Source: Pukyongiella litopenaei
GTDB taxonomy: Bacteria; Pseudomonadota; Alphaproteobacteria; Rhodobacterales; Rhodobacteraceae
Length of the DNA stretch: 64,000 nt
Assembly (NCBI RefSeq): GCF_003008555.2
Contig: NZ_CP027665.1
Coordinates: 744,001 to 808,000, forward strand
Direction of reading: 5' to 3'
Notes under the pieces: generated by a model
Databases searched by the model: none
What the model was told of the DNA's origin: nothing
The model's input: the letters and a program-made list of their open reading frames with translations, nothing else
Shown here: positions 28,982 to 39,008 of the stretch, piece after piece
How the letters are laid out: the number at the start of each line of letters is the position of its first letter
Position numbering within the stretch: the stretch's first letter is position 1
Made by a program: the position numbers and the translations under genes

Positions 28982-29989
28982 TTACGGGTCGGCTGTCACC
29001 TCGTCCCGCAAGGGGAAGTGGCAGGCCACGCCCCGGCCATCGGCACCGGTGGTCAATGCTGGCCGCTCCGCGGCGCATTTCGGCTGCGCGAAGGCGCATC
29101 TGGTGCGATAGGGGCAGCCCGACGGCAGGGCGAACGGGCTTGGCAGGTCGCCCGCGATACCGGTGCGGGCACGCCGGGGCGGATACAGGCTGGGCCGGGG
29201 CATGGCGTCGCGCAGGACACGGGTATAGGGATGGCGCGGCCGCGAAAATACATCGTCGGCATCGCCGATTTCGACAATCGCGCCGAGGTACATGACGGCC
29301 ACGCGATTGGAAATCTGGCGGACGACGGCCAGATCGTGGGCGACGAAGATATAGGTCAGCCCAAGCTCTTCACGCAGGTCGGCAAGCAGGTTGATGATCT
29401 GGGCCTGGATCGAGACATCGAGTGCCGAAACCGGTTCATCCGCCACCAGCAGCCGTGGATTGAGCGCGAGCGCCCGCGCGATGCCGATACGCTGTTTCTG
29501 GCCGCCCGAGAATTCATGCGGAAAGCGCAACGCATGTTCGGGACGCAGGCCGACCCGGCGCAGCAATTCGCTCACCCTATCGTCGATGTCCGATCCCGAG
29601 CCGATACCGTGAATCCGGTAGGGTTCGGCCAGAAGATCGCCCACCCGCCGCCGCGCGTTGAGCGATGCGGCAGGATCCTGAAACACCATCTGCATCTCGC
29701 GCCGGAGCGGGCGAATGCGCCGCGGGCTCAGATGGGTAATGTCGCGACCGTCGAATTCCAGCTGCCCCGAAGTGATGTCCTGCAACCGCATCAGACATCG
29801 TCCAAGCGAGGATTTGCCACAGCCGGATTCACCCACGATGCCGAGCGTCTCGCCCGGCATGACCTCGAGCGAAACCTCGTTGACCGCATGGACCTGCTGC
29901 CGACGCGATGGCAGCAGCGAGCGGCCGATCCGGTAGACCTTGGACAGTTTCGTCGCCTTCAGCAGCGGGGTGGCGGCAATATCTGTCAT
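28982..29989 (-). CDS. oligopeptide ABC transporter ATP-binding protein, DppF/OppF type
   Basis: This 335-residue ATPase has Walker [10 protein letters not shown] near residue 53, the [17 protein letters not shown] signature and [12 protein letters not shown] Walker B. The C-terminal oligopeptide-transporter extension has the Cys-containing [15 protein letters not shown] motif. It is the last gene of a five-gene peptide importer operon and overlaps DppD by 4 bases. Peptides delivered by it could feed the proline iminopeptidase encoded beyond the LuxR gene. Confidence 0.92.
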
Positions 29990-30985
29990 CCTCGTTCAAC
30001 CTCCCGGGCGGGCATCAGGGTGGCGCGGGTTTCCTCCGGCAGGACACAGGCGCTGCGGTGACCGGCGCGACCTGATAGCCCCGGTTCGATCAGGCAGGCT
30101 TCATGCGCATGGGGACAACGCGGTCGAAAGGCGCAGCCCTCGGGCAGCGCCGACAGCTTCGGCGGCGCCCCGGGAATGGCCTGCAACCGGGCCGGGCGCG
30201 GCCCGTCAAAGGGCGGGATCGATCCGAAGAGCCCCCAGGCATACGGATGCGCCGGCCGGCGAAACACGGCCGCCTTCGGCCCCTCCTCGACGATCCGGCC
30301 GGCATACATCACGTTCACCCGGTCCGATGTCTCAGCCACCACGCCGAGATCGTGGGTCACGAGGATAACCGACGATCCGAAATCCTCTCTCAGACGGCCG
30401 ATCAGATCGAGGATCTGCGCCTGTATGGTCACATCGAGCGCCGTCGTGGGCTCATCGGCCAGCAGCAGCGCCGGGTTGCAGGCCACCGCCATGGCGATCA
30501 CCGCCCGCTGCCGCATCCCGCCCGAGAGCTGGTGCGGGTACCGGTCGGCCACGGCGCGCGGGACCGGAATGCCGACCGCGTCGATCAGTTCCACCGCACG
30601 GTCATGCGCGGCACGGCGCGACAGCGGCTCATGGGCGCGCAGCGTCTCGACGATCTGCGCGCCGACGGTGTGAACCGGCGTCAACGAAGTCATCGGGTCC
30701 TGAAAGATCATTCCGATCTTCTTGCCACGGATGCGGTCCAGCGCGCGCCGGGACAGGCCCATGAGCTCCTGCCCCTGGAACCGTATCGACCCGCTCAGGA
30801 CCGCGTTGGGACTGTCGACCAGGCCCATGATCGCCAGCAGCGTCTGGCTCTTGCCCGAGCCGCTCTCGCCGACCAGCCCAAGAATCTCCTTGCGGCCAAC
30901 GGAGAAGGAGACCCCGCGCACAGCTTCGACCAGCCCCTCTTCGGAACGGAATTGCACGGTCAGGTCCGTGACCTCGAGCAGCGGT

Positions 30986-30996
<11 letters not shown>
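29986..30996 (-). CDS. oligopeptide ABC transporter ATP-binding protein, DppD/OppD type
   Basis: This 336-residue ATPase has Walker A GESGSGKSQT near residue 40, the HQLSGGMRQRAVIAMA signature characteristic of DppD/OppD, LLADEPTTALDV Walker B, and the C-terminal GCAFRPRCPHAHEAC cluster. It pairs with the DppF-type subunit to drive one importer. Its start lies inside the end of the upstream permease gene (11-base overlap). Confidence 0.92.
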
Positions 30997-31959
<963 letters not shown>

Positions 31960-31960
<1 letters not shown>

Positions 31961-32994
31961 CAGCCGATCCTCACGGTCGATTTCGGGTCGAGCGCGTCAC
32001 GCACCCCGTCGCCGAAGATGTTGAGCGCCAGCACCGTCACCGCGATGGCGATACCCGGGGCCAGCGCGACCACGGGACGGGAATAGAGCAATCCCTGACC
32101 GTCCTGAATGATCGTGCCCCAGCTCGCATCCGGCGGCTGAACGCCGATCGAGAGGAAGGACAGCGCCGATTCGATGATCATCGACAGCGCCAGGATCAAC
32201 GGCAGGAAAACGACGATCCGGGGCACCACATTGGGCAGGATGTCCTTGATGAGGATGCGCCAGGGCGAGGCCCCCAGCCCGACCGCGGCGGTGACGAACT
32301 CGGCGCCCATGAGGGTCTGGACATGACCGCGAATGGGTCGGGCGACATAGGGGACGTAGACGATGCCGATGATGAAGATCGGCAGCGCCAGCGAGCCCGA
32401 TGTGACCCGCAACGGCCCTATGGACAGCGTCTGGTTGAGCAGCACGATGGAAAGGGAAATGGCCAGCAGGAAGATCGGAAACGCCCAGAGCACATCGAGG
32501 ATGCGCGACAGGATCGTGTCGGGTACGCCTCCGAAGAACCCCGCCGTCGTGCCCACGATCGTCGCCAGCACGAGGCACAGCGTAGTCGAGGCGGCCGCAA
32601 TGAAGAGCGAGTTCCGTCCGCCATAGAGCATCCGCGCCGCGACATCGCGCCCCTGGTTGTCAGCCCCCAGCATGAACGGACCAAAGCGCCATGTCGGCCC
32701 GATGGGCGTGAGGCCCAGGCCCAGGCCGGTGGTCGACGGCTCCAGGACCGGACGTTCCTCGCCATCGATGACGACGGTTCCGTTGAGATTGGTCACGAAG
32801 GGATCGGTCACGGCGACATGGCGGGCATAGAACGGGGCCAGCAGACAGACCGCGACGATCAGAACCAGCACCACCAGCGCCGTCATCGCCGCCCGGTCGC
32901 ACCGCAGTTTGCGCAGCGCCGTGGCCCAGGGACCTTCCGTCGCATTCGCCTGTCCCGTCCGGGCCTCGGGCCTGCCGGTTTCGGTGGAGTTCAT
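31960..32994 (-). CDS. peptide ABC transporter permease, DppC type
   Basis: This 344-residue permease has a long hydrophilic N-terminus before the first helix (ALVVLVLIVAVCLLAPF), the DppC segment GADNQGRDVAARMLYGGRNS, and the coupling motif TAAVGLGASPWRILIKDILP at about 237. It lies 68 bases after the binding-protein gene. That gap holds a 9-base-pair hairpin. Confidence 0.91.
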
Positions 32995-33062: not shown

Positions 33063-34724
33063 CTATTCGACCCAGGACTGGTTGATAATCCAGTAGAACT
33101 GGGGTGAGAACATGAAATTCTTCACCCGGGACGAAACAAAATCCACCCGTTTCGGCGTGAACAGCACCGCGGCAGGCGCCGCGTCGGTCACGTCACGGTC
33201 CACTTCGGTCCACAGCGCCGCCGAGGCCTCGGGATCGGACAGGGTCAACGATACCGCCTCGGCCATCTTCGCATCGATCGCCTCGTCGCAGAACCCGGAG
33301 ATGTTCACCGATGCATCGGAGCCCGGCGTGAAAGAGGCGCAACCAAACAGCACTTGCAGGAAGTTCGAGGGCGACGGGTAGTCCTGGAACCACTGGGATA
33401 TCGAGATCTGCACGTTGTTGTTGGTGTTCTGGATGTAGGTGAACTGGATATTCTGCGAGATCGCCTGGACCTTCGCCTTGTAGCCCAGCTCGGTCAGCAC
33501 GTCCTGCAGATAGACCCCGATCGCACGCGAGACGGTGTTGTCCTCGGCGATGATCGTGACTTCCTGGCCGGCGGTGCCGGATTCCTCGACCAGTGCCCGC
33601 GCCTTCGCCATGTCAGGAGCGGACCAGCTGCCACCTTCCCCCACGGTATAGGGGCAGTATGGTTCGTAGGAAGGGAAGCCGGGCGGCAGGATCTGGCAAG
33701 CCGGTTGCGCAAGGCTCGAACCGCCAAAGAGCTTGACGATGGCCGAACGGTCGATGGCGTAGTTCACGGCCTGGCGCACCCTCACATCGTCAAACGGAGC
33801 GAGATTGGTGTTCATCGGCGCATACCACATGGCCGTCAGCGGGTGCACGAATGCCTGGTCGGCATATTTGGTGCCGATCTCGGCCAGACGGTCCGGCGGC
33901 GGCGGATCGAACATCCAGTCGGCCTGGCCGTTCTGGATCGCGGTGACCGCGGCCTCTTCGGTCAGGCCGAAATCATAGTCGATCTCGTCGGGGAAACCGG
34001 CGGGCTGGGCCTCGGCGCTCCATTCCTCGAAATGGGGGTTGCGCACCATCTTGAGCCGCTCGTTCGGATTGTAGCTCTCGATCATGTATGGGCCGCTGCC
34101 GGGAACCGGATCGGTGCCCATGTCCTTGATCGGCGTCTCGGCAGGCAGGATCGCTGCATGGGGAATGGCGATCTTCTGCAGAAACTCGCCATCGGGTGCG
34201 GTCAGGTTGATGGTGACGGTCCCGGCCGCCTCATCGATTACGACACCCCCGTCCAGCGTGCAGTCGGCAGGTGCAGCGATACACGCATCAGCACCGACGA
34301 TCCCGTTGTAGAACGTACCGGCGGTGGGTCCGGACACCTTGAATATCCGCTGGAACGACGCGAGCACGTCGGCGGCCGTCAGATCCGACCCGTCCGAGAA
34401 CTTGATCCCGTCGCGAAGCTTGAAGGTATAGGTCCTGCCGTCGTTTTCCGGCTCCGGCAGCGCCTCGGCCAGATCCGCGACCACGTCAAACCCGGTTTCG
34501 TCGCCGGCTTTTCTGAAAGTCACCAGACCGTCATAGAGCATGTAGTTGATCTGGAAATACTGCAGCGTGTAGTTGATATGCGGGTCGATCGTGCCCGCGG
34601 CCGCCTTGGCCAGAAGGCGCAGCGTGCCACCGGGCGACCCCTGAGCCGCGGCGGGGGTGGCAGCCGTGACAGCGGCCAGCGCAATGCCGGACATCAGGGC
34701 GGCAAGTGAGGATCTGTACGTCAT
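33063..34724 (-). CDS. peptide ABC transporter substrate-binding protein (DppA/OppA family, SBP_bac_5)
   Basis: This 553-residue periplasmic binding protein has a Sec signal peptide ending AAATPAAAQG (about residue 29) and the SBP_bac_5 pattern: YTFKLRDGIKFSDGSDLTAADV, GSGPYMIESYNPNERLKMVRN and FDDVRVRQAVNYAIDR. The start at 34724 is preferred because AAGGGA lies 6 bases upstream; the ATG at 34730 touches that sequence. It heads the peptide importer operon and is divergent from the luxR gene. Substrate specificity within peptides is unknown. Confidence 0.92.
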   Translation of the reverse strand: MTYRSSLAALMSGIALAAVTAATPAAAQGSPGGTLRLLAKAAAGTIDPHINYTLQYFQINYMLYDGLVTFRKAGDETGFDVVADLAEALPEPENDGRTYTFKLRDGIKFSDGSDLTAADVLASFQRIFKVSGPTAGTFYNGIVGADACIAAPADCTLDGGVVIDEAAGTVTINLTAPDGEFLQKIAIPHAAILPAETPIKDMGTDPVPGSGPYMIESYNPNERLKMVRNPHFEEWSAEAQPAGFPDEIDYDFGLTEEAAVTAIQNGQADWMFDPPPPDRLAEIGTKYADQAFVHPLTAMWYAPMNTNLAPFDDVRVRQAVNYAIDRSAIVKLFGGSSLAQPACQILPPGFPSYEPYCPYTVGEGGSWSAPDMAKARALVEESGTAGQEVTIIAEDNTVSRAIGVYLQDVLTELGYKAKVQAISQNIQFTYIQNTNNNVQISISQWFQDYPSPSNFLQVLFGCASFTPGSDASVNISGFCDEAIDAKMAEAVSLTLSDPEASAALWTEVDRDVTDAAPAAVLFTPKRVDFVSSRVKNFMFSPQFYWIINQSWVE

Positions 34725-34774
34725 TACCATTCCCTTGTTGATTTGCGCGATTGCGCGCGATTGGCTTTGTCATT

Positions 34775-34794: not shown

Positions 34795-34880
34795 CGACAG
34801 ACGATTCCGGCAAGGACAGCAAGCGCCCCCGGAAATCGCGTGACATATGGAAGCGTAGCGGTGGGACTTTCGGCCTGTAT

Positions 34881-34898
34881 AGCTATTGATTGTTATAG
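34881..34898 (-). promoter_or_regulatory. candidate LuxR-solo site, copy 1 (CTATAACAATCAATAGCT)
   Basis: This 18-mer on the minus strand matches the site at 35820-35837 at 14 of 18 positions without gaps. It lies in the 309-base gap between the divergent peptide transporter operon and the luxR gene. Its ends give a partial dyad, CTAT-N8-ATAG. Function is inferred from recurrence and location only. Confidence 0.45.
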
Positions 34899-35033
34899 GT
34901 CTGAGCGGATTCGGGATCGAAACACGGCACTGGCGCCGGTTTTCCGGTCGGCAGACACGCAGGGACGCACCGGGAACGCCCCATTCCGACGGCCAGAATT
35001 GACATGCACCGCAGGTGTGCAATCATCATCTTC

Positions 35034-35798
35034 ATGTTGCAGACTCTGGCTGAAAAGAAAGGCGCGTTCTATCCGGGCCTCGACCTCGACGACGCGATGG
35101 ATCTCGCGCGCGAGATCCTGCAGCCCGCCGGGTTCGATATCGTCACCTACGATTTCTCGCCCGTTCCGCTGACCCATGACGGCCAATTCATCCTGCCCAC
35201 GGTTCTCAGCATGCGCGGCACGCCGGGCGACATGGAACATCTGTGGTGCGCGAACGGCTATTACAGCCGCGATCCGGTGATGGATGCCGCGCGGCAGGTG
35301 ACCCGGCCCTTCGCGTGGTCGCATCACGGCCGGCAGAGCCTGGTCATGCGCAACATCCTGGGAGACAGGCACCGGCCCGTCGTGGAATATCTCCTGGACA
35401 GCGGGATGCGCAGCGGCATCACCGTCCCGGTCCGGGGGCCGGGCGGCGCGTTGGCGACATTCAGCGCGATTCGGATCGGCAATGCCGACGACGCGGACCT
35501 GGAGGAGCATCTCTCGACCGTCGGCCACCTAGGATATGTCCTGCATGACGCGGTGCGCGCCGGTTTCTCGGGCGATGATCTTCGCACCTCTCACGTCCGG
35601 TTCACGCCGCGGGAACGGCAATGCATGATGCTCTGCGCCCAAGGACTGACGACCAAGCAGATCGCACATGAAATCGATCGCTCTATCCCGACGGTCACGC
35701 TGCACCTGACCTCTGCCGCGAACAAGCTGGGCGCGCGGAACCGGGCCCATGCGCTGGCGCTCGCCGCGCATTATCGCCTGCTTGAACCCGACGCCTGA
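35034..35798 (+). CDS. LuxR-family solo regulator with plant-signal-type ligand pocket
   Basis: This 254-residue protein has an N-terminal autoinducer-binding domain and a C-terminal LuxR helix-turn-helix (FTPRERQCMMLCAQGLTTKQ then IAHEIDRSIPTV). Aligned by the invariant DP (80-81) and Trp95, the positions matching TraR/LuxR Trp57 and Tyr61 are Met67 and Trp71. That M/W pair marks the plant-associated LuxR solos (OryR, XccR, PsoR, PipR type), which respond to plant compounds and not to acyl-homoserine lactones. There is no luxI in the window. Neighbours are a peptide importer and pip. An alternative ATG lies at 35004. Confidence 0.9.
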   Translation: MLQTLAEKKGAFYPGLDLDDAMDLAREILQPAGFDIVTYDFSPVPLTHDGQFILPTVLSMRGTPGDMEHLWCANGYYSRDPVMDAARQVTRPFAWSHHGRQSLVMRNILGDRHRPVVEYLLDSGMRSGITVPVRGPGGALATFSAIRIGNADDADLEEHLSTVGHLGYVLHDAVRAGFSGDDLRTSHVRFTPRERQCMMLCAQGLTTKQIAHEIDRSIPTVTLHLTSAANKLGARNRAHALALAAHYRLLEPDA

Positions 35799-35819
35799 GC
35801 CGTGGCCCGGGCTGGTACC

Positions 35820-35837
35820 CTATAAGATTCCCTAGCT
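35820..35837 (+). promoter_or_regulatory. candidate LuxR-solo site, copy 2 (CTATAAGATTCCCTAGCT)
   Basis: This 18-mer lies 69 bases upstream of the pip start and resembles the minus-strand element at 34881-34898 (14/18 identities). Position and pairing suggest activation of pip and of the peptide transporter by the same regulator. It does not obviously match lux-box consensus sequences I know. Confidence 0.45.
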
Positions 35838-35905
35838 GTCACCGACCGGCGCGCCGCTGCTAGCCTCTTGCTGACAAGCCATGAGACAGGGACCGGGAGA
35901 TCAAC

Positions 35906-36805
35906 ATGTGCGCCTATGACGTCACGACAGGGGTTTCACCGTATCAGGGATACGAAACCTGGTACCGCATCTGCGGTTCGCTCGACTCCGACAAGCTGCC
36001 GCTGGTCGTGGCGCATGGCGGACCCGGATGCACCCATGACTATGTGGACAGTTTCAAGGACTTGGCGGAAACCGGCCGCCCGGTGATCCATTACGACCAG
36101 ATCGGCAATGGAAAATCGACCCACCTGCCCGACAAGGGGGCCGATTTCTGGACGGTCGACTTCTTCCTCGGCGAGCTTGACGCGTTGCTCGACCATCTGG
36201 GCATCCGCAACCGCTATGCCTATCTCGGCCAGAGCTGGGGCGGGATGCTGGGTGCGGAACACGGGGTGCGCCGTCCGGCCGGGCTCAAGGCCCTGGTGAT
36301 CGCCAATTCACCCGCCTCGATGGAACTGTGGCTGGCCGGAGCCGCCAAGCTCCGGGCGGAGCTGCCGCCCGAGGTGCAGGCTGCGCTCGACACGCACGAG
36401 GCCAACGGCACGACCGATCACCCGGACTACAAGGCCGCCGAGAAGGTCTTCAACGAAAGGCATGTCTGCCGTGTGGTTCCGATGCCGCCCGAGGTGCAGC
36501 GCACCTTTGACGCCATGGAAGAGGACCCCACAGTGTATCACACCATGAACGGGCCGAACGAATTCCACGTTGTCGGGACGATGAAAACATGGTCCGTTAT
36601 CAACCGCCTGCCGAACATCGCCGCCCCCACGCTCGCGTTCCGCGGCTTCCATGACGAAGCGACGGAAGAATGTGTGCAGCCGTTCCTCGACCTGATCCCC
36701 GACGTGGTCGGCCATGTCTTTCCCGATTCCAGCCATATGCCGCATGTCGAGGAGAAGGAAAGCTGCCTGGCCGTCACCGAGGCCTTCCTCGCCAAGTTCG
36801 ATTGA
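35906..36805 (+). CDS. pip: proline iminopeptidase-family alpha/beta hydrolase (S33)
   Basis: This 299-residue alpha/beta hydrolase has the oxyanion motif HGGPG (37-41), the nucleophile elbow GQSWGG with Ser110, an Asp in FRGFHDEAT and the catalytic His in DSSHMPH near the end. This is the S33 proline iminopeptidase / amino-acid amidase pattern, with no signal peptide, so it acts in the cytoplasm on N-terminal prolyl peptides or amides. GGGAGA precedes the start. It is downstream of the LuxR solo, as pip genes are in plant-associated LuxR-solo loci. Confidence 0.9.
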   Translation: MCAYDVTTGVSPYQGYETWYRICGSLDSDKLPLVVAHGGPGCTHDYVDSFKDLAETGRPVIHYDQIGNGKSTHLPDKGADFWTVDFFLGELDALLDHLGIRNRYAYLGQSWGGMLGAEHGVRRPAGLKALVIANSPASMELWLAGAAKLRAELPPEVQAALDTHEANGTTDHPDYKAAEKVFNERHVCRVVPMPPEVQRTFDAMEEDPTVYHTMNGPNEFHVVGTMKTWSVINRLPNIAAPTLAFRGFHDEATEECVQPFLDLIPDVVGHVFPDSSHMPHVEEKESCLAVTEAFLAKFD

Positions 36806-36859: not shown

Positions 36860-38788
36860 TCAGCGCCCGGCGTCCGCCGCGCACAGCAGGACGCCGTCGA
36901 AGAATTCGGACAGTTCCCGCCAGGCATCGAGCGGCAGGACGTTGGCGACATACTGGTCGGGGCGGACGACGATCATGCAGCCCCGGTCGCGGTCGATTCC
37001 ACGCATGTCGTAGATGTCGCCGGCGCCCTTGTGATCGACGCAGAAGACCTTTTCGTGATCCATGAGCCCCAGCTTGCCGGTGCAGGGTTTCAGCAGCGAC
37101 GGGATGTGTTCATAGTCCAGCCGGTCAAAGGTCTGCTGAAATATCGCGCGGACATCGATCACGGCGTCGATATCCTCGGCCCTGCCGGTGTGTTTGACCA
37201 CGGGCGATTCCGGGTCGCGTTCCAGCCAGTCGGCGAGCCGGTGGATTGCCGAACCCGCATGTGAACCGTCGCCCGCCCCGGCAAAGGCATAGATGCGCCA
37301 GCGCCCGTCCGCCCCGGCCGCGTGACCCAGCTGCATCTGCCGGGCATCCGACAGGCGCACGACCGGGGCCGAATGGAACCGGCGGCCGATTTCCTCGCCG
37401 GTGGCCAGCGCCTGATGGGTCGGGGCCGCGACCAGCGCGGATCTGTCGTATTTGACCGCCAGCCCGCCGGTAAACTCCAGGTTCTCCTTGAACGCGCGAA
37501 CGAAACGCGGCTCTGCGCCACCGTCGAGCTCGGATGTTCCCGGCGGGGCCGACATGATCCGGGCCCATGCGTGATCGGTGTCGATCAGCCGCCGGGCCTC
37601 GGCCCGGCGTTCGCCGGAATAGCTGCGCAACAGGGTCGCATCGGCACGCCCCATCAGCACATGCGCCAGTTTCCAGCCCAGGTTGAACGTGTCCTGCATC
37701 GAAACGTTCATGCCCTGGCCGGCCTTGGGGCTGTGGGTGTGGCAGGCATCGCCCGCGGTGAAGATGCGGGGATTGCGGTCTTCACCCGCCGGCACGTCAT
37801 CGAACCGGTCGGTCAGGCGGTGCCCGATCTCGTAGATCGACCACCAGACGACCTCTTTGACGTCGATGGCATAGGGCCGCATGATCCGGTTCGCCGCCGC
37901 GATCAGGTCATCCCGGGTGAAGTTTCGCTCGGCCACACGCTCGTCTTCGCCGAGCGTGTCGAGCTCCACATACATCCGGAACAGATAGCCGCCTTCGCGC
38001 GGCAGGATCAGGATGTTGCCGTCGCGGGCCGACGCGATCAGGCATTTCTGGCGGACATCCGGAAAATCGGTATTGGCCAGGATGTCCATCACCCCCCAGG
38101 CCTTGTGCGCCGCGTCACCATGCAGTTCGCCGCCGATCGCCTTGCGCACGGTCGAGCGCGCGCCGTCGCAACCGACCACATACCTGGCGCGGATGGTGGC
38201 GAGATCGCCCCGGTTCACACCGGTGTCTTCCAGCGTCACGGTCACCGGGTGATCATCGGCCCCGGTGTCGATCGAAAGGTCTTTCAGCGCCAGTCCGTAA
38301 TCGGGCGCAAGCCGGGATGGCGAGTTTCGCATCACCTCGAGGAAAAGCTCGTGCATCCGGGCCTGGTTGATCAGGACATGGGGCATTTCCGAGCTGTCAT
38401 CGGCGACATCCTGCACCCGGCCGATACGCCTGATCGCATCCGGGTTGTCGGGATCGGGCATCCAGAAACTGGTCTGGTTGACCCAATAGGTTTCGCGCTT
38501 GACCTTTTCGGCAAATCCGAAGGCCTGGAACATCTCCATCGTGCGGACGCTGATGCCATCGGCCTTGCCCTTCACGATGTTGGACGGGCTCGCCTCGACG
38601 ATCATGGTGTCGATCTGCGGAAACTGCGCAAGCTGGGCGGCCAGGCACAGCCCTGCCGGGCCGGATCCGACGATCAGCACGTCCACCTTTTCCGGCAGCG
38701 GCGCGTTCGGCGACCGGTCACGCCGGTTCGGCGCGGCATCCCTGATGTCGGGATTTCCGCCGCGAAATCCATCCTTGTAGAATTGCAT
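36860..38788 (-). CDS. FAD-dependent aromatic monooxygenase, 3-hydroxybenzoate 4-monooxygenase / phenol 2-monooxygenase type
   Basis: This 642-residue class A flavin hydroxylase has the GSGPAGLCLA ADP-binding motif (41-50), the DG motif GCDGARSTVRKAIGG, the GD motif FTAGDACHTHSPKAGQGMN and a C-terminal thioredoxin-like domain. Length and motifs match MobA (3-hydroxybenzoate 4-monooxygenase, giving protocatechuate) and phenol 2-monooxygenases. GGAGAAAG precedes the chosen ATG (MQFYKDGFRGGNP). It is a single-gene unit convergent with pip. The exact phenolic substrate cannot be fixed from sequence. Confidence 0.87.
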   Translation of the reverse strand: MQFYKDGFRGGNPDIRDAAPNRRDRSPNAPLPEKVDVLIVGSGPAGLCLAAQLAQFPQIDTMIVEASPSNIVKGKADGISVRTMEMFQAFGFAEKVKRETYWVNQTSFWMPDPDNPDAIRRIGRVQDVADDSSEMPHVLINQARMHELFLEVMRNSPSRLAPDYGLALKDLSIDTGADDHPVTVTLEDTGVNRGDLATIRARYVVGCDGARSTVRKAIGGELHGDAAHKAWGVMDILANTDFPDVRQKCLIASARDGNILILPREGGYLFRMYVELDTLGEDERVAERNFTRDDLIAAANRIMRPYAIDVKEVVWWSIYEIGHRLTDRFDDVPAGEDRNPRIFTAGDACHTHSPKAGQGMNVSMQDTFNLGWKLAHVLMGRADATLLRSYSGERRAEARRLIDTDHAWARIMSAPPGTSELDGGAEPRFVRAFKENLEFTGGLAVKYDRSALVAAPTHQALATGEEIGRRFHSAPVVRLSDARQMQLGHAAGADGRWRIYAFAGAGDGSHAGSAIHRLADWLERDPESPVVKHTGRAEDIDAVIDVRAIFQQTFDRLDYEHIPSLLKPCTGKLGLMDHEKVFCVDHKGAGDIYDMRGIDRDRGCMIVVRPDQYVANVLPLDAWRELSEFFDGVLLCAADAGR

Positions 38789-39008
38789 CACTTTCTCCCG
38801 GGCCTGGCAGAGCGGCTGGCGCGGATCGCCTGCGCCAGTTCTATCCATGCCGGCATAGGCCGGGCAAGTGTCGCGGCAAGGATCGCCCAGGACCGCGCAG
38901 GCACCGGCGGGGTGATCGACGCCCCTGCGCGGGGACCGCGACGCAGGCACAGGTCGCGGCCTTCTGATGGCATATCTGCCAGTCCCGGCGCCGGTGTCAT
39001 GCCCCGGA

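Follow-up and report, generated by a model that had tools for sequence, protein, structure and literature searches.

Two 20-bp elements flank the gene of a LuxR solo in the 64-kb stretch of DNA analyzed here (to be referred to as the window), and they are very probably the operators of this protein. They would be lux boxes of the pip-box type, through which the LuxR solo located between them drives a peptide-type importer on one side and the pip gene on the other. At the level of sequence, this reading is based on the dyad, its conservation, its spacing to the -10 region, its orientation, its co-occurrence with LuxR, and a protein signature typical of LuxR solos from plant-associated bacteria (PAB). 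The PipR system of Pseudomonas sp. GM79 is the basis for the binding, activation, ligand, and feedback loop that are proposed below.

The genes of the locus are:

About 28985-29974, minus strand: second importer ATPase (sequence match)
29986-30996, minus strand: importer ATPase, OppD type (domain match)
30986-31960, minus strand: importer permease, OppB/DppB type (domain match)
31960-32994, minus strand: importer permease, OppC/DppC type (domain match)
33063-34730, minus strand: substrate-binding protein (SBP; SBP_bac_5) of an Opp/Dpp-type peptide importer (domain match)
35034-35798, plus strand: LuxR solo, autoinducer-binding and GerE/HTH domains, with an alternative upstream start (ATG) at 35004
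35906-36805, plus strand: pip, proline iminopeptidase-family hydrolase (TIGR01250 at 241.6 bits; cut-off 167.65)
36860-38800, minus strand: phenol 2-monooxygenase-family FAD hydroxylase (NF006144, 958.9 bits), convergent with pip

The importer operon lies to the left of luxR and is divergent from it, and pip lies to the right. In the gene neighborhood, luxR has the importer, pip, and the phenol 2-monooxygenase-like gene as its neighbors, and no luxI was found beside it. The gap between pip and the FAD hydroxylase gene has no box of the CTA-N10-TAG type.

The two domains of the LuxR solo are recognized in Pfam (PF03472, 6e-25; PF00196, 4.9e-14). Residues M68, W72, D81, P82, and W96 correspond to W57, Y61, D70, P71, and W85 of TraR, with the first two replaced by M and W and the last three kept. 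The signature of PAB LuxR solos (PMC3909224) is the replacement of W57, Y61, or both, usually by M and W, with D70, P71, and W85 retained. A PAB LuxR solo is further defined by its response to a plant compound instead of AHLs. Judged from genes and sequence, the protein can be assigned as a putative PAB (OryR/PipR-type) LuxR solo. In a tree of LuxR proteins, it groups with those of three other loci (L015, L101, and L100) and adjoins homologs from Mesorhizobium and Aureimonas, among a wider set of loci to which GM79 PipR also belongs. A search of a literature library found no paper on such a locus in Rhodobacteraceae.

The elements have the following positions:

34881-34900, minus strand, facing the SBP gene: pip/lux box of the transporter promoter, ACCTATAACAATCAATAGCT
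35818-35837, plus strand, facing pip: pip/lux box of the pip promoter, CCCTATAAGATTCCCTAGCT

A preliminary description of this DNA had placed two related 18-mers at 34881-34898 (minus strand) and 35820-35837 (plus strand), one in the SBP/luxR gap and the other in the luxR/pip gap, and these assignments are correct. The identity at 14 of the 18 positions is also borne out, with mismatches at positions 7, 9, 12, and 13. The shared motif is real, but the 18 bases did not cover its full extent, as the true element is a 20-mer that contains the 18-mer at each site. The second 18-mer is indeed upstream of pip, although it ends 68 bp before the ATG (35906) rather than 69. The 20-mer is lux-box-like, with the CT-N12-AG dyad of lux-type boxes present at both sites, and its 16-bp core forms an imperfect inverted repeat (CTAT-N8-ATAG; CTA-N10-TAG). 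The right half of the pip box is imperfect (CCCTAG). The G+C contents of the SBP/luxR and luxR/pip gaps are 57.8% and 63.6%, respectively, compared to 66.9% for the 64-kb window.

Plasmid records, scanned genome contigs (which gave 80 loci), and whole same-family genomes supplied the related loci, in which the genes were located by tblastn. A scan of viral contigs found no relatives. An EM motif search with random seeds covered 177 upstream regions, from which the window and its nearest relatives (L100, L101, and L015) were held out. The motif from these related luxR-pip loci converged on ACCTATcAnTTTTGATAGCT. When both strands of the 64-kb window are scored with this held-out motif, the box at 34881-34900 ranks first (27.7 bits) and that at 35818-35837 second (23.3 bits), where 5.7e-5 and 1.2e-3 chance matches, respectively, are expected per 64-kb window. 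The next-best site elsewhere in the window has 12.3 bits.

With a site of at least 15 bits called a box, 83 of 93 other luxR-pip loci have a box in both gaps and another 7 have one in a single gap. Among 4,438 control pieces taken from these loci, 5 reach this score. The conservation in orthologous loci is therefore strong, and the motif is recovered de novo. In two loci of the same family (L100 and L101), the boxes are kept and the rest of the gaps diverges; 19 of the 20 bases at 35818-35837 are identical in L100, and the box at 34881-34900 is the longest conserved block of the SBP/luxR gap among the three same-family loci compared.

The genome (4.26 Mb) contains the strict pattern CTATN9TAGCT at the two boxes and nowhere else, compared to 37 occurrences of the reversed control. 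Looser pattern searches gave no convincing third site in the genome. Their one-mismatch matches, considered as further genomic targets, reach at most 17.2 bits, at or below the genome-wide chance level, and the best of these matches falls inside a coding frame; they were rejected as boxes. A site of 20.1 bits, GCCTATATTTTTCAATAGGT, is found away from the pip locus in another genome of the family (L113; G314:C1:1172856-1172874). It is a weaker, possible third target in that genome.

The promoter regions contain these further elements:

34852-34857, minus strand: -10-like hexamer TACGCT on the transporter side, bases 24-29 after the box
35861-35866, plus strand: -10-like hexamer TAGCCT on the pip side, bases 24-29 after the box
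34999-35026, plus strand: sigma70-like promoter of luxR, TTGACA-16-AATCAT, about 100 bp from the box

In both window promoters, the -10-like hexamer begins exactly 24 bases past the 20-mer. Across the related loci, 68 of 84 non-redundant promoters have TAnnnT at 22-24 bases past the box, and it is almost never seen at other distances. The box is thus tied by a fixed spacing to the core promoter, as would be the case for the site of an activator that binds beside RNA polymerase. If the hexamers are true -10 elements, the boxes are centered near -45.5 in a class II-like layout, and the sequence places the predicted transcription starts near 34845 (transporter) and 35873 (pip). A position near -45 is typical of activator sites. 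Moreover, the box is asymmetric. Its forward orientation, towards the transporter or pip, outscores the reverse in 159 of 182 regions, and the box at 34881-34900 has 27.7 bits when read towards the transporter and 18.8 bits when reversed. No -10-like hexamer is found at the set spacing from the box on the luxR side of the SBP/luxR gap. The promoter-like site of luxR itself is a single occurrence, against 0.3 expected from shuffles. About 8 bases separate its end from the ATG at 35034, and luxR may therefore have a leaderless transcript or one that begins within a few bases of this codon.

The distribution of the box follows that of the LuxR protein. From Alpha- to Gammaproteobacteria, the box was found wherever the linked LuxR is close kin. 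Four genomes of the same family (G077, G241, G358, and G439) have orthologous pip-SBP-permease genes and no LuxR match at E 1e-15, although this absence is less sure for G241, as its genome is only 71% complete. The corresponding loci have no box, the best sites being 9.3 (L121), 3.6 (L122), 11.0 (L123), and 1.0 bits (L125). The SBP paralog of the source genome itself also has no box (4.1 bits). The LuxR protein is sporadic within the family: 8 of 394 genomes have a match at E 1e-30, and some of the remaining genomes have the pip-importer genes but no such LuxR, which suggests that the regulator was gained or lost, or moved by horizontal transfer.

Three other same-family loci (L104, L105, and L106, from G002, G377, and G286) have a divergent LuxR near pip, and the box is absent from them. 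The LuxR proteins of this subgroup are 35-39% identical and have L at position 57. A different dyad, TGCAAGATCTTGCA, is located upstream of pip in L104 and L105, with a degraded form in L106, at 68-87 bases before pip. The recognition helix is also different (SESMVVKHLQ compared to SxPTVTLHLx). Together, the different helix and the different dyad suggest that DNA specificity was switched along with the box. A further locus (L103, in G046) has the same synteny and a LuxR that is only about 32% identical; its SBP/luxR gap contains a near-perfect palindrome, CTATCAAAAATGATAG, and a TGA was flagged within the reading span of its luxR match in the whole-genome search.

The simplest alternative is that two unrelated AT-rich stretches in GC-rich DNA happen to agree at 14 of 18 positions. 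The preliminary description had argued against chance from this match, but the match is not significant by itself (P 0.12 to 0.48). Two such gaps give a best 18-mer match of at least 14 in 12% of cases when resampled by a Markov model, and for paired real pieces of the window the figure is 48%. This is the chance level for a best-of-all-pairs comparison, and the bare gap-to-gap match is therefore not used as evidence here. However, a motif learned from other species places exactly these two positions first and second in the window, same-family orthologs keep the boxes in place while the remaining gap sequence diverges, and the spacing to the -10 hexamer is fixed. A coincidental resemblance is already refuted by the cross-species conservation, and its probability is practically nil.

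A real operator could also belong to another regulator, and the genome does encode other HTH proteins of the LuxR/NarL superfamily. It is quite improbable, however, that one of them is the cognate protein, as the box accompanies a close-kin linked LuxR from Alpha- to Gammaproteobacteria, it is absent where the pip-SBP genes occur without a detected LuxR, and activation in GM79 depends on PipR and on the same box. Only marginally more credit can be given to a LuxR that represses through the box, or to a box in the SBP/luxR gap that serves mainly for luxR autoregulation rather than the transporter. Some LuxR proteins are repressors, and this box does sit in a gap common to SBP and luxR. On the other hand, it reads best towards the transporter or pip, is followed at the set spacing by a -10-like hexamer towards the transporter but not towards luxR, and lies near -45, the position of an activator site; luxR has a separate promoter-like site about 100 bp away. 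The earlier proposal that the motif may be the binding site of the LuxR solo is thus supported by the held-out motif, the 83 of 93 loci, the absence of the box without LuxR, and the coincidence with the PipR site of GM79, and by analogy the LuxR solo very likely activates the peptide-type importer and pip.

In the proposed circuit, LuxR would be made from its own box-free promoter and would bind a small molecule imported by the neighboring peptide-type ABC importer. The LuxR dimer would then bind the CTA-N10-TAG dyad, whose center is about 45 bp before the transcription start, and activate two promoters of shared design, that of the importer operon leftwards and that of pip rightwards. Induction of the importer would give positive feedback on signal uptake, and the Pip peptidase would probably trim or destroy the signal, closing a negative loop. 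More tentatively, and with some doubt, this could be a private two-promoter circuit, limited to the importer and the signal-cleaving peptidase, and its ligand could differ from the ethanolamine derivative of GM79, given the distant relationship between the two importers.

With these results, a visual hunch has become a well-supported operator, and the PipR-type signaling module with its importer is extended to this alphaproteobacterium. The locus is well supported as a new example of an already known type of plant-signal-sensing system. The consensus ACCTATcAnTTTTGATAGCT with a -10 at 22-24 bases is a tool for predicting targets of PAB LuxR solos. For the genome of the window, the predicted regulon consists of the importer and pip only, which offers a simple system for identifying the natural signal.

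Canonical LuxR/TraR boxes are also 20-bp dyads of the CT-N12-AG type, located upstream of the core promoter and recognized by a LuxR-type activator. Their half-site is of the CTG type, whereas that of the window is CTAT(A/C)A. The two systems differ in residues 57 and 61 of the regulator as well, and the window has no luxI in the gene neighborhood.

The pip promoters of PAB LuxR solos have been reported to contain a 20-bp lux or pip box (PMC7683790, PMC7301841). OryR, XccR, PsrR, NesR, and PsaR2 share with the window the non-canonical residues of the AHL pocket, the adjacent pip, and the inverted-repeat box upstream of it (PMC7683790, PMC3909224, PMC7301841). The Kosakonia box, CCCTGAAAGCCAGTTCACTT (PMC7301841), has CTG where the window branch has CTA, and the Xanthomonas loci have an APC-type transporter (PMC4981722) in place of the ABC importer of the window.

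The PipR-pipA-aap locus of Pseudomonas sp. GM79 has the same organization as the window, with a LuxR solo between pip and a peptide-type ABC importer. There are differences between the two. In GM79 an extra peptidase gene, aapA, heads the transporter operon, whereas the window operon starts with the SBP gene. PipR keeps W at position 57, compared to M57/W61 in the window LuxR, and the two proteins have 38% identity. The GM79 transporter is only a distant relative of the window importer, with permeases that are about 31-32% identical. In GM79, the ABC transporter is required for the response, and the box on the side of the transporter operon had only a small effect (PMC4981722), so strong control of the importer in the window locus is not assured. 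An inverted repeat centered at -71.5 from pipA is needed for PipR-dependent expression, and a change of CT to TA in it abolished PipR-dependent activation (PMC4981722). Our motif identifies ACCTATCTGTTTCTCTAGTT at -71 of pipA (locus L065), coinciding with this tested PipR site. GM79 has the same box at pip and on the transporter-operon side, with the same class of -10 spacing, and its transporter box, ACCTATAACAAATACTAGCT, is nearly identical to ACCTATAACAATCAATAGCT of the window.
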